From Candidatus Baltobacteraceae bacterium (lineage in GTDB: Bacteria > Vulcanimicrobiota > Vulcanimicrobiia > Vulcanimicrobiales > Vulcanimicrobiaceae), in the NCBI GenBank assembly GCA_036489885.1, contig DASXEW010000003.1:186001-250000 (forward strand): a DNA stretch of 64,000 nt. Direction: 5' to 3'. Below the pieces are notes generated by a model. The model did not search any database. It saw nothing but the letters and a program-made list of their open reading frames with translations, and was not told the origin of the DNA. Of the stretch, positions 52 through 33,587 are shown piece by piece (within the stretch, counting starts at the first letter, position 1; the number at the start of each line of letters is the position of its first letter). The translations under genes were made by a program, and so were the position numbers.

Positions 52-921
52 TTAACCTTCCGGAGCGCGAGAACGGATGGCGATGGCAACGCACGCAATG
101 ACGGCAAGCGCATAGACGAGATCGCGCGGCCTTACTGCCTCGCGAACGATCACGTGTGAGATTCCGATCGTGACGAGCGGCTGCAGCACGAGCAGCTGGC
201 TGATTCGAGCTGTACCTCCCAGCTGCATCCCCCTATACCACGCCATTGCACCGAGAAACATGCTGATTAGCGAGACCCAAGCAAAACCACCCCACGCAGC
301 CGGTGACACGTCGTGGGGCGGTGATTTAATCAGATCGATTCCCAGAGGGACGATAACGACGGGGATCATCAATAGCAGCGCCCACGACAGCGTTTTGTCG
401 GCGCCGAGCGTGTGCGAAAGGCGCGAACCTTCGACATACGCGATGCTCGTGCTGACGACGGCGGCTACGAAATAAAGGTCGGCCACGCCGAAACCGCCGC
501 CGGATGCGAAGACATACGCCGTAACGGCAATGAGCGCGCCGATGCAGCCGACCCAAAACATTGCGGGTGGACGTTCGTGGTTCCGAATGACTGCAAGCGC
601 AGCTGTCGCGGAGGGCGCGAAACCCGCAACGACGGCGCCATGAACGGATGATGCCGTCGCGAGACCGAGTGCCACGAACCATGGGTACCCTATCGCGAGA
701 CCGGCGCCGGTGACCGCGAGAACGGCGAGATCTCGCCAGGCGGGAACGCGGACGCGAGAGACGATCAACAACACCCCGCCGAGAGTGCCGGCGATGACGA
801 TGCGCCCCGCGGTTACGACAAACGGATCGAAGCCGGTTATCGCCAGCTTCGTGGCCGGAAACGTTCCACTGAAGGCGACGATCCCGATCATTCCAAGGAG
901 CACGCCGCCGCGAAGGTTCAC
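52..921 (-). CDS. EamA/DMT-family transporter
   Basis: The 289-residue product has about ten hydrophobic segments arranged as two similar halves (roughly residues 8-138 and 150-283). This is the usual EamA/drug-metabolite transporter plan and length. The family exports or imports small metabolites across the inner membrane; the substrate cannot be read from sequence. The GTG start overlaps the stop of the upstream acylphosphatase gene as GTGA, so the two are probably translationally coupled in one operon with the aldolase gene. Family assignment is firm, substrate unknown. Confidence 0.85.
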   Translation of the reverse strand: MNLRGGVLLGMIGIVAFSGTFPATKLAITGFDPFVVTAGRIVIAGTLGGVLLIVSRVRVPAWRDLAVLAVTGAGLAIGYPWFVALGLATASSVHGAVVAGFAPSATAALAVIRNHERPPAMFWVGCIGALIAVTAYVFASGGGFGVADLYFVAAVVSTSIAYVEGSRLSHTLGADKTLSWALLLMIPVVIVPLGIDLIKSPPHDVSPAAWGGFAWVSLISMFLGAMAWYRGMQLGGTARISQLLVLQPLVTIGISHVIVREAVRPRDLVYALAVIACVAIAIRSRAPEG

Positions 922-1190
922 CGCAAAACGCTAAATCCGCTGATGCCTCGCGCTTGGTCTTCGCGGCGCTCGACGCGATCGACATGCGCGCCGCTCGGCG
1001 GATCGCGCAGGACCGCGTCGATGAAATCGTTTACGGCATCGTCATCGCCCTCGACGTCGATTTCGACCGCGCCCGACGCCAAATTACGCACCGTTCCGGC
1101 GACCGGAAATCGCGCGGCGAGACGAATGACGGTATAACGAAAGCCGACTCCCTGGACGCGACCGTGCAGCTCGAGAACGATGCGCGCTAT
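918..1190 (-). CDS. acyP: Acylphosphatase
   Basis: The product hydrolyses acyl phosphates. The core GRVQGVGFR carries the catalytic Arg (about residue 18), and GTVRNL supplies the catalytic Asn (about residue 36). No ATG, GTG or TTG lies between the upstream aldolase stop and the conserved first strand. A start at ATA 1190, which overlaps the aldolase TAG, gives exactly 90 residues, the family's usual length. The alternative is an ATG at 1283, which adds 31 unlikely residues inside the aldolase gene. The end overlaps the next gene by GTGA. Function is clear; the start is inferred. Confidence 0.8.
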   Translation of the reverse strand: MARIVLELHGRVQGVGFRYTVIRLAARFPVAGTVRNLASGAVEIDVEGDDDAVNDFIDAVLRDPPSGAHVDRVERREDQARGISGFSVLR

Positions 1191-1957
1191 GCCTTGACCT
1201 CGGCGCGCGCACCCTTCGCAGCACGCAAAAGCATCCCGCTGTCGCCCGAATAGCCGACAAGCGTGTAGCCCATTGCAACGCAATCATTCGCAAACGCGGC
1301 GTCATGAATCTGAATGCCGGCATATTTGCCGTGCTTTTTCGCAATTTGCGGTATGAGAGCGATCGCTTCCTTATACTTCGCGCTCATCTTCGACCAGATA
1401 AGCGCCGGCTCACCCATTGTTAGGGCCAAATCGTTCGGTCCGACGAAGAGCAAATCGACGCCTTCGGTCGCTGCGATCGAATCTGCATTCTTGACGGCTT
1501 CGGGCGTTTCGATTTGCACCATCAGCATCGTTTCCTCGTTCGCACGCGGACGATATTCGGGCATCTCCGCTCCGAATGCGATCGGTGCGCGAATCCCGCC
1601 GCAGCTCCGATTTCCAAGCGGCGGATATTTTGCATCGGCGACGGCCGCTTTGGCTTGGGTCGAGTCGTTGACGACGGGGACGAGCGTACCGTACGCACCC
1701 ATATCGAGCACCTTCTGAATGAGCGACGATTCGTTCCATGTAACGCGTACGAATGGAACGCAACCCGCGGCCCGGCACGCGTTGATGAGATGGATAACGG
1801 CGCTACCGGCGATCGGACCGTGCTCGGTGTCGACCATCAGCCATTCGAATCCGGCGGCGGCCATGATTTCAGCAGACAGCGGGCTCTCGAAGGCGAGCCA
1901 CGAACCGACGCTTACGCCACCAGCCCGCAATTTGTTTCTTACTGTGTTTTCACGCAT
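1187..1957 (-). CDS. HpcH/HpaI-family aldolase
   Basis: This 256-residue protein resembles class II, metal-dependent 2-keto-3-deoxy acid aldolases, which split or form 2-oxo acids using pyruvate. Visible motifs are WLMVDTEHGP (catalytic His region), MVQIETPEA (metal-binding Glu) and LFVGPNDLA (metal-binding Asp region). The ATG at 1957 gives the usual family length; a longer reading frame upstream has no such motifs. It heads an operon with acylphosphatase and a DMT transporter. It is divergent from the glycosidase-like gene with only 10 bases between start codons, so the two promoters must lie within coding sequence. The exact substrate is unknown. Confidence 0.85.
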   Translation of the reverse strand: MRENTVRNKLRAGGVSVGSWLAFESPLSAEIMAAAGFEWLMVDTEHGPIAGSAVIHLINACRAAGCVPFVRVTWNESSLIQKVLDMGAYGTLVPVVNDSTQAKAAVADAKYPPLGNRSCGGIRAPIAFGAEMPEYRPRANEETMLMVQIETPEAVKNADSIAATEGVDLLFVGPNDLALTMGEPALIWSKMSAKYKEAIALIPQIAKKHGKYAGIQIHDAAFANDCVAMGYTLVGYSGDSGMLLRAAKGARAEVKA

Positions 1958-31145: not shown

Positions 31146-31471
31146 ACAACCGCCACATTGTGCGTCTGTGTGCGCGTGCCTTTGCAGAGGAGTTCCTGCT
31201 TCCCACGCAAGCGCTGCAGAACGGAGTTACATTATGTTGAATTTTCTTCGCGTCGCTTTAGAGCGGCGCGCGACTTTTCACAATCGCTCCCCAAACCGCC
31301 GCCGACGCCGTTCGTAACGAATACGCTTGAGGCCAAAGTCGAAGCGACCTTTATGAAAGATCCTGGCTGTTCCGGAGGCGCAGGCGGACACGCTCGCCCA
31401 GCGATAACGTAAGGAACTCAAGGGCATGTACGTGCGCGATCACGACGTCGTGCCGATGAGAAGAATTGCGC
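31146..31471. other. Intergenic region, no supported gene
   Basis: This ~325-base stretch upstream of the MFS gene has only short broken frames. In one plus-strand frame the last ~25 codons run into the tRNA remnant and end in GIEPRT then stop. Integrase genes ending in a tRNA often look like this, so it may be old integrase debris, but nothing in it can be identified. Confidence 0.3.
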
Positions 31472-31518
31472 GACCTGACGGAATCGAACCGCGAACCTAG
31501 GGCTTAGGAGGCGCTCGC
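31472..31518 (-). pseudogene. tRNA-Arg(CCT) 3'-half remnant
   Basis: Read on the minus strand there is an anticodon loop CTCCTAA (anticodon CCT) with an imperfect stem, a T arm around GGTTCGATTCC, and an acceptor-like AGGTCGC. The D arm and 5' acceptor strand are missing, the T stem has a mismatch and no CCA follows. It therefore looks like the 3' half of a tRNA-Arg gene, of the kind left as an attachment-site scar by an integrated element. It is not expected to be functional. Confidence 0.5.
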
Positions 31519-31612: not shown

Positions 31613-31641
31613 TTGACTATGCGATTGTGACGTGTTACCGT
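31613..31641 (+). promoter_or_regulatory. Likely promoter of the sulfite reductase leader
   Basis: TTGACT (31613-31618) and TACCGT (31636-31641) are separated by 17 bases. Transcription would begin near 31648, about 20 bases before the leader-peptide ATG and 236 bases before the cysI start. Confidence 0.45.
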
Positions 31642-31667
31642 CGGTTGCAATGTTGAGCGTGTACGCG

Positions 31668-31709
31668 ATGATGATGTGTTGTATCTCGCCCCTGCGGGGA
31701 TCGGCGTAG
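31668..31709 (+). CDS. Cys-Cys leader peptide, putative cysteine attenuator
   Basis: A 13-codon frame encodes MMMCCISPLRGSA and stops at 31709. Two adjacent Cys codons (31677-31682) follow the starts. It lies 175 bases upstream of the sulfite reductase gene and 30 bases before a strong intrinsic terminator. Ribosome stalling at the Cys codons when charged tRNA-Cys is scarce could favour an alternative fold and read-through. Cysteine-rich leader peptides that control sulfur genes this way are known in mycobacteria; their presence here is inferred from sequence only. Confidence 0.6.
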   Translation: MMMCCISPLRGSA

Positions 31710-31739
31710 CGCTTAGACGCGTGCCCTGCATGGCTGCGT

Positions 31740-31780
31740 AGAGCCCTCGCCGATTCGGCGGGGGCTCTTCATTTTCTCTT
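31740..31780 (+). terminator. Intrinsic terminator in the sulfite reductase leader (attenuator)
   Basis: A 13-bp stem (31740-31752 with 31756-31768, one G-U pair, loop ATT) is followed by a U-rich TTCATTTTCTCTT. It sits between the leader peptide and cysI, so it would stop transcription before the gene unless disrupted. GGCT (31732-31735) can pair with AGCC (31742-31745), an alternative hairpin that would break the terminator's left arm. Confidence 0.75.
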
Positions 31781-31804
31781 CCCATCGAACAAGGAGAGAC
31801 AGTC

Positions 31805-31891
31805 ATGGAAGCGCCCGTTGCGACAACGCAGCACATCCCTCACTTAGCTATTGCCCGGGCCTACAATCGCATTACGGTGATCCATGAGTGA
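31805..31891 (+). CDS. 28-residue upstream ORF coupled to sulfite reductase
   Basis: This frame has a strong ribosome binding site (AAGGAGA at 31791-31797), begins ATG GAA GCG, encodes 28 residues (MEAPVATTQ...VIHE) and stops inside the cysI start region (cysI ATG at 31884, this stop at 31889-31891). The cysI ATG itself has no good ribosome binding site. The short frame could load ribosomes that then restart at cysI, or be a small protein; no domain is seen. Confidence 0.5.
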   Translation: MEAPVATTQHIPHLAIARAYNRITVIHE

Positions 31892-33587
31892 TCATCTGCT
31901 CGAACTCGGCGCCGGTGTCGGCAGCAAAGTTGAATCAGTAAAAGCCGAGAGCGACTTCTTACGTGGAACGATCGCGGAACAACTTCTTAACGACAGTCCT
32001 AACCTTTCGGAGTCCGACGCAAACCTTCTCAAGTTTCACGGGAGCTACCAGCAAGAGGATCGCGACCAGCGCCGAGCGCGTCGCGACGAGGGTTCCGGCA
32101 AAGCGTACCAGTTCATGATTCGCACGCGCGTGCCCGGTGGCGTTTTGTCCGCAGCGCAATACTTAGCCGAAGAAACACTCGCGGACAAATACGGCAACGG
32201 CACGCTGCGGATCACGACCCGACAAGGATTTCAGCATCACGGCGTCCTCAAGGGAGATTTGCGTAGTGCGATCGCCGAGATCAATTCCGCTGATCTCACG
32301 ACGCTTGCAGCCTGCGGGGACGTGAATCGCAACGTCATGACGTGCCCAGCACCGATCCGAACGTCCGCTGACGAAGCGATAGTAGAAATTGCGCAAGCAA
32401 TCGCGCGTCACCTGACCCCGGCAACGCGCGGTTACCGCGAGATTTGGGTCGACGGCGAACGCGTCGAACAAGCCACTCCCGACGTCGAACCGATTTATGG
32501 TCCGACGTATCTGCCGCGCAAATTCAAGATCGGCATCGCGCGGCCTGACGACAACTGCGTTGATGTCTATACGCAAGATATCGGTCTTGTCGCAGACGTG
32601 GAGGGTGAACGGCTCCTCGGATTTACGATACTCGTCGGTGGCGGCATGGGAATGACGCACGGCAAAACGGCGACGTATCCACGACTCGGTACATCACTTT
32701 GTTTCGCCGTTTCGGACGATGTCCTGGGGATCGTCGAGGCCATTGTCACGACGTATCGGGACTGGGGCGATCGCAACAACCGAAAGCATGCGCGCCTCAA
32801 ATACCTCGTCGAGGAGCGTGGCATCGCGTGGTTCCGCACGGAAGTGCAACGTCGCAGCGACATACCACTACGCGCGCCGCGGCCGGTCCGTTTAAGCGAG
32901 GTCGACGATCACCTTGGGTGGCAGCCGCAGCCCAACGGACGTTGGTGCTTCGGTCTATTCATCGAGAACGGCCGAATCAAAGACGACGAAACATCGGAAT
33001 TGCGGACGGCTCTGCGCACCGTCATCGACCGCTTCCGTCCGGGCGTGCACCTCACGGCGCAGCAGAATATCTTGCTGACGGATATCCTTGTACCAGATAT
33101 TCCTGAGCTGACGCGGCTCTTCGAATCGCATCGCGTCGCCATCGATCCGCGAAAGCTCGGCGCGCACCGGCACGCCATGGCGTGTCCTGCGCTACCAACG
33201 TGCGGCTTAGCTCTGACTGATGCTGAGCGCGTGCTCCCTGATGTCGTCGCAGCGATCGACGCCGAACTCGAACAGCTAGGTTTCGAGGATCGGCCGCTTA
33301 GTATTCGCATGACGGGATGCCCGAACGGTTGCGCTCGACCGTACATGGGCGACATCGGTTTCGTCGGACGGTCCAAGGATCTGTACGACATCTTTCTCGG
33401 CGGCGACTGGGCGAACACGCGACTGAACTGGCTCTTTGCGACAGGCATTCGCCTGAATGAACTTGCGTCGACGGTCGCGCCGCTCTTACGGCGATGGCAA
33501 CAAGAAGGTGAGGATGAGGAGAGTTTCGGCGATTTTTGTCATCGGCTCGGGCGCGAGGCACTTACCGCAGTGGCGGCGGCAAGCTAA
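31884..33587 (+). CDS. cysI: Sulfite reductase hemoprotein (CysI/Sir)
   Basis: The 567-residue product follows CysI through its length. ESDFLRGTIAEQL and LLKFHGSYQQEDRD open it, RITTRQGFQHHG and CGDVNRNVMTCPAP bind siroheme, ETYLPRK-like PTYLPRKFKIG follows, and ACPALPTCGLAL with MTGCPNGCARPY give the four cysteines of the 4Fe-4S/siroheme site. It reduces sulfite to sulfide for cysteine synthesis. A nitrite reductase role is less likely given the close CysI pattern. No CysJ flavoprotein is adjacent, so ferredoxin or a distant partner may donate electrons. Leader elements upstream suggest cysteine-dependent control. Confidence 0.9.
   Translation: MSDHLLELGAGVGSKVESVKAESDFLRGTIAEQLLNDSPNLSESDANLLKFHGSYQQEDRDQRRARRDEGSGKAYQFMIRTRVPGGVLSAAQYLAEETLADKYGNGTLRITTRQGFQHHGVLKGDLRSAIAEINSADLTTLAACGDVNRNVMTCPAPIRTSADEAIVEIAQAIARHLTPATRGYREIWVDGERVEQATPDVEPIYGPTYLPRKFKIGIARPDDNCVDVYTQDIGLVADVEGERLLGFTILVGGGMGMTHGKTATYPRLGTSLCFAVSDDVLGIVEAIVTTYRDWGDRNNRKHARLKYLVEERGIAWFRTEVQRRSDIPLRAPRPVRLSEVDDHLGWQPQPNGRWCFGLFIENGRIKDDETSELRTALRTVIDRFRPGVHLTAQQNILLTDILVPDIPELTRLFESHRVAIDPRKLGAHRHAMACPALPTCGLALTDAERVLPDVVAAIDAELEQLGFEDRPLSIRMTGCPNGCARPYMGDIGFVGRSKDLYDIFLGGDWANTRLNWLFATGIRLNELASTVAPLLRRWQQEGEDEESFGDFCHRLGREALTAVAAAS

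Follow-up and report, generated by a model that had tools for sequence, protein, structure and literature searches.

A predicted leaderless cysteine attenuator upstream of cysI and related leaders at sulfur genes of the Vulcanimicrobiota

The window analyzed in this work is a stretch of 64,000 nucleotides from a Candidatus Baltobacteraceae bacterium (Vulcanimicrobiota), and it carries cysI, the gene for the hemoprotein subunit of assimilatory sulfite reductase, downstream of a short leader frame and an intrinsic terminator. The features of this region, all on the forward strand, are the following.

31613-31618, forward strand: -35 element TTGACT (sequence match)
31633-31641, forward strand: extended -10 element TGT-TACCGT, with the hexamer TACCGT at 31636-31641, 17 nt past the -35
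31650-31709, forward strand: leader frame MLSVYAMMMCCISPLRGSA, 19 codons, open from ATG 31650, predicted to be leaderless
31677-31682, forward strand: adjacent Cys codons TGT TGT (codons 10-11 of 19), the proposed stall site
31698-31709, forward strand: 5' strand of the predicted antiterminator, at the end of the leader frame, pairing with 31746-31756
31740-31768, forward strand: intrinsic terminator hairpin, 13-bp perfect stem, 3-nt loop, -25.8 kcal/mol
31746-31756, forward strand: 3' strand of the predicted antiterminator, part of the terminator 5' arm and loop
31769-31778, forward strand: U-rich tract TCATTTTCTC (by sequence)
31791-31798, forward strand: Shine-Dalgarno sequence AAGGAGAG of the frame 31805-31891, rated strong (by sequence)
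31805-31891, forward strand: 28-codon frame, a cysH remnant overlapping the cysI start, with a longer form in a second copy
31884-33587, forward strand: cysI (NCBIfam PRK13504, E=4.5e-218)

The preliminary description of this region, a short frame with two Cys codons, a 13-bp hairpin and cysI, held as to the positions of these elements, and cysI starts at 31884, downstream of both leader and terminator. The extent of the frame has changed: it had been placed at 31668-31709 as 13 codons, MMMCCISPLRGSA, and it likely begins 18 nt upstream, at ATG 31650, which gives 19 codons. This start is inferred from sequence alone, and it is favoured because of the promoter spacing and because a second copy of the leader differs by an in-frame indel of 3 nt. 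Since ATG 31650 lies just 8 nt past the end of the TACCGT hexamer, a leaderless transcript is predicted, that is, the leader mRNA probably begins at or near the first codon. A similar spacing is observed across the 35 leaders of this build that were collected in total: a TAnnnT hexamer, mostly with TG before it, is found 6-10 nt upstream of the start codon, and 30 of them have a TTGA or TTGC match in the -35 region.

Between the leader and cysI, the frame 31805-31891 is a deleted remnant of cysH, as revealed by comparison with the second copy and with the family loci L003 and L004; the CysH motif of these two loci is also present in the longer stub of the second copy (...NRIALTCSFGGPSGIVSLDVV...). 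The remnant overlaps the start of cysI, and translational coupling between them is possible. A profile search with PF01507 did not find a full CysH in the genome of this bacterium, the sole match being a CysD protein, nor was an AprA able to replace the missing CysH found above the cut-off; the region around the genome's own cysD (L052) has no leader according to our scan. A possible integration scar is found at 31468-31518, approximately 100 bp ahead of the promoter of cysI: a 3' tRNA gene fragment that matches a portion of another locus of the genome, tRNA-Arg(CCT), at 88% identity.

The genome carries a second cysI (G000:C4:32718-34418), whose protein is 90% identical to that encoded in the window and whose leader is MFSAHAIMMMCCISPLRGSA. 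When the two leaders are aligned, the end of the frame (42/42) and the terminator (39/39, 31740-31778) are identical, and the promoter (32/43), the spacer (24/30) and the cysH stub (60/84) have diverged; the sole indel inside the leader frame is that of 3 nt. Gene conversion could also preserve identity, but it would have to be restricted to just the frame end and the terminator. A transposase-like frame (L002:3630-3872, forward strand) is located just upstream of the promoter of this second copy, on the 120-kb contig C4. A third leader with a terminator, MNACCEKMACCMSPLLGSA (L131:4028-5171, reverse strand; G000:C1, around 260-261 kb), is located upstream of genes for a RimK-like ATP-grasp protein and a metallo-hydrolase, and its presence suggests a role for the ATP-grasp gene in cysteine or thiol metabolism. 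A pattern combining the Cys codons, an ATG and an extended -10 was run on the complete 3.48-Mb genome and gave four matches, three of which are leaders with terminators (the two cysI copies and the ATP-grasp gene); the same pattern read backwards gave no match in these 3.48 Mb.

Eleven cysI loci of the family (L001-L011) were picked by a cysI protein search alone. At 10 of them, a Cys frame and a terminator precede cysI or a cysH-cysI operon and the alternative pairing recurs; this count includes L007, whose terminator (GCCGCCCATCAGGTGGCTTTTTT) is weaker, falls below the scan threshold and was accepted after reading it by eye. One of these loci, L003, comes from a genome of the window's family (G014), and is contained in a record of Candidatus Eremiobacterota (Vulcanimicrobiota), L020. 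The exception is L011, where the promoter is present and the leader and terminator are both absent, as if they had been lost together, which is a possibility. L008 and L011 are cysI loci of one genus and have the promoter in common, L011 being a natural deletion; the pair would offer a ready control for unattenuated expression.

Part of the leader set was found by means of a TGTTGT pattern, and a terminator was never required. The genes behind the leaders are mostly cysI, cysH, sulfate-permease and sulfonate-uptake genes. The pattern scan of the family and the reading of neighbourhoods added leaders before genes for SsuA-type sulfonate-binding proteins (TIGR01728), SsuD-like monooxygenases (below the curated cut-off), transporter permeases, one SulP sulfate permease and FAD oxidoreductases. 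After almost every Cys frame a terminator is found, 16-48 nt past the leader stop codon. Five loci (L116, L117, L120, L122 and L123) are divergent pairs of sulfur genes in which each side has a Cys leader and a terminator of its own. In L004 a terminator and a leader containing codons for Thr, Met and Cys, MSSHATTMMYPHCCMHMQSAGEFVRRAR, precede a homoserine dehydrogenase gene (83-1396, reverse strand), and this arrangement could be a multi-amino-acid attenuator; the cysH frame of the same locus (genome G043) contains in-frame stop codons, and either a pseudogene or a sequence error is possible. Pattern matches in L128, L130, L132, L133 and L134, which have no terminator, were rejected as leaders.

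The same build was also observed in other phyla. It precedes cysH-cysI in one record of the Phycisphaerae (L026, Planctomycetota) and cysI in one of the Anaerolineae (L045, Chloroflexota), where the TTGAC -35 is absent, and it lies upstream of cys operons in three Gemmatimonadota records (L025, L027 and L039). The last three encode related peptides (MIVRHT...CC...) that keep the Cys clusters and are followed by a strong terminator; reading of translated frames gave a cysC-, cysH- and sat-like gene order and then cysI.

The association of Cys codons with terminators was compared with that expected by chance. In 411 kb of family sequence, made up of loci partly picked by the Cys pattern without any terminator requirement, 39 short frames have the promoter and the spacing; a terminator follows 28 of the 30 with adjacent Cys codons and none of the nine without them (Fisher p 2.6e-7). 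Likewise, of the in-frame pattern matches, 24 of 25 are accompanied by a terminator where the cysI search gave a full match in the genome, and one of six in the remaining genomes (Fisher 2e-4); this is a manual count, and the cysI search did not cover all of the remaining genomes. The codon usage is also distinctive: in leaders found without the pattern, cysteine is encoded by TGT 40 times and by TGC 12 times, whereas eight genes of the window use TGT 10 times and TGC 31 times (p 4e-7).

An attenuator is expected to have a short leader frame with clustered codons for the end product of the pathway, an intrinsic terminator between this frame and the structural gene, and an antiterminator that excludes the terminator, is freed by a stalled ribosome and is masked by a ribosome at the stop codon. 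The window meets the first two of these criteria, cysteine being the end product. The terminator hairpin is followed directly 3' by TCATTTTC, and the U-tract is interrupted (TCATTTT), which is a point against the attenuator reading. As for the third, the RNA from 31692 to 31756 folded alone gives a long hairpin of -32.0 kcal/mol that includes the pairing of 31698-31709 with 31746-31756. In the equilibrium fold of the full RNA the terminator is still preferred; the model therefore requires the antiterminator to fold before the terminator does, as happens in classical attenuators. The preliminary description had proposed a different switch, the pairing of GGCT (31732-31735) with AGCC (31742-31745); these segments exist and can pair, but a role as the switch is unlikely, given that they form a hairpin of only 4 bp and about -4.9 kcal/mol, against -32.0 for the antiterminator at the frame end.

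In 29 of the 35 leaders, the pairing between the segment downstream of the Cys codons and the terminator arm of the same leader is better than that of shuffled sequences (Stouffer z -7.0), and on average it is better than that with the segments of other leaders (mean swap rank 0.32; 35 leaders). The predicted sequestration of the terminator 5' arm over the 35 leaders is 0.77 with a ribosome at the Cys codons and 0.28 with a ribosome at the stop codon; with shuffled upstream sequence it is 0.54, and 34 of the 35 leaders exceed their own shuffles. For the window alone, the z of the antiterminator duplex is only about -2. The combined z-scores overstate the certainty, because the leaders are related, many come from few genomes (G019, G045) and they are not independent. 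The third criterion is thus met in the model predictions, with strong support for the set and moderate support for the window.

Taken together, we favour ribosome-mediated transcription attenuation by charged tRNA-Cys, to which we assign a probability of about 0.83; the evidence is only comparative, without transcript, ribosome or growth data. According to this model, RNA polymerase would begin transcription at ATG 31650 or slightly upstream of it, and a ribosome would load on the leaderless 5' end, a step that is itself inferred. With ample Cys-tRNA, the ribosome would reach the stop codon at 31707-31709 and cover the end of the frame, the hairpin 31740-31768 would form, and transcription would stop. 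When Cys-tRNA is short, the ribosome would halt at 31677-31682 and leave the RNA free from about 31692; the segment 31698-31709 could then pair with 31746-31756 before the 3' arm of the terminator exists, and transcription would continue into the cysH remnant and cysI. The sequence elements, their conservation and the predicted folds are shown; stalling, leaderless initiation, read-through and the response to cysteine are inferred. The earlier proposal of a cysteine-responsive attenuator ahead of sulfite reductase is supported in kind by the comparative test, and the cysteine response itself remains an inference.

An alternative is that these frames act by translational attenuation, the hairpin being a side feature or an element for RNA stability. 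In its favour, mycobacterial leaderless Cys frames upstream of sulfur genes have been described as acting through translation attenuation (PMC13236596, citing Canestrari 2020; PMC4633059), and the overlap of cysI with the cysH stub makes downstream translational coupling possible. Nonetheless, a terminator stands behind almost every Cys frame, and the Shine-Dalgarno sequence at 31791-31798 lies outside both alternative hairpins, so we consider this explanation unlikely. Still less support exists for the idea that the frame is a gene for a small Cys-rich metal- or redox-binding peptide, with an ordinary terminator and no control of cysI. A CxxC-like spacing does occur in some leaders, e.g. MSARCFVCPCPCCLAGNERALI, but the peptides have little in common except cysteine, that of the window has only two, most of the genes just downstream belong to sulfur assimilation, and the last part of the frame can base-pair with the terminator.

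Sulfur genes are classic targets of riboswitches and T-boxes, and a riboswitch, a T-box or a protein-bound leader, in which the peptide frame would be incidental, could account for a region that is more folded than its shuffles (z -2.2). What the family conserves, however, is the Cys frame and the terminator, and no other common fold was seen; Rfam at the gathering score gave nothing except tRNAs in the window or in 20 related loci, and at a permissive E-value gave only chance matches on the leader. We regard this possibility as very improbable as well. Finally, two adjacent Cys codons are easily met in a short frame, and a chance frame ahead of a terminator could be invoked; this is contradicted by three full leaders among four genome-wide pattern matches, with none for the reversed pattern, and by the recurrence at 35 places, which practically rule it out.

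Attenuation by a leader peptide is textbook knowledge for the trp, his and branched-chain genes. The leaders described here have in common with the classical attenuators (trp, his, ilv) a leader frame with regulatory codons, a terminator and an antiterminator, and differ from them in that cysteine is sensed and in the predicted leaderless start without a Shine-Dalgarno sequence. With the mycobacterial poly-Cys short ORFs (PMC4633059, doi 10.1111/mmi.14498) they share a Cys-rich frame and a position upstream of sulfur or cysteine genes, where the mycobacterial ORFs are thought to sense cysteine; the leaderless start of those ORFs would also be shared if the start predicted here, from a promoter-like -10 that ends 8 nt before ATG 31650, is correct. 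Mycobacterial Cys leader peptides lack a conserved terminator and have their Cys codons close to the stop codon (PMC1262725), and leaderless Cys frames of these bacteria have been described as translationally regulated (PMC13236596); in contrast, the frames described in this work have their Cys codons early or in the middle and are followed by an intrinsic terminator. The window does not meet the mycobacterial criterion of a Cys run near the stop without a terminator. The parallel with mycobacteria drawn in the preliminary description thus held only in part, since the mycobacterial cases lack a terminator (PMC1262725) and have been described as translational (PMC13236596).

Another related design is uORFC-8-2 of the Rhodobacterales cysS, a predicted case of ribosome-mediated transcription attenuation (PMC8632094), which has a start codon, two tandem Cys codons and a terminator with a U-run. 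It differs in gene and phylum, being restricted to positions ahead of cysteinyl-tRNA synthetase in a single alphaproteobacterial order, and also in fold, its Cys codons lying in the first stem; neither a leaderless start nor a sulfur regulon has been described for it (PMC8632094), and the leader in the window precedes cysI, not cysS. Cysteine attenuation is scarcely described: we found the mycobacterial cases, which are translational, and one predicted leader, that of cysS, and the open-licence literature that we searched contains no account of such leaders in Vulcanimicrobiota. On comparative grounds, what is likely to be new is a cysteine-specific, predicted leaderless attenuation with intrinsic terminators across a sulfur regulon. 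Similar leaders do precede other sulfur genes, where the preliminary description had suggested looking for them; its view of this leader as a compact independent example failed in part, as the leader is a member of a regulon and is not isolated.

The presence of many leaders of one design suggests a regulon governed by ribosome stalling; if their starts are truly leaderless, it also suggests a coupling of RNA polymerase to a ribosome loading straight onto the 5' end. The leader signature can also be used to place genes of unknown function, such as the ATP-grasp gene (G000:C1, around 260 kb), in cysteine or thiol metabolism. A bolder reading, which at present could as easily prove wrong as right, is that the leaderless Cys attenuator is the common control of a whole sulfur-starvation regulon (sulfate and sulfonate uptake, cysH and cysI) in Vulcanimicrobiota, its build being found in at least three other phyla as well, with the ribosome as the cysteine sensor of the regulon; in these bacteria the ribosome might even take the place of a dedicated transcription factor.
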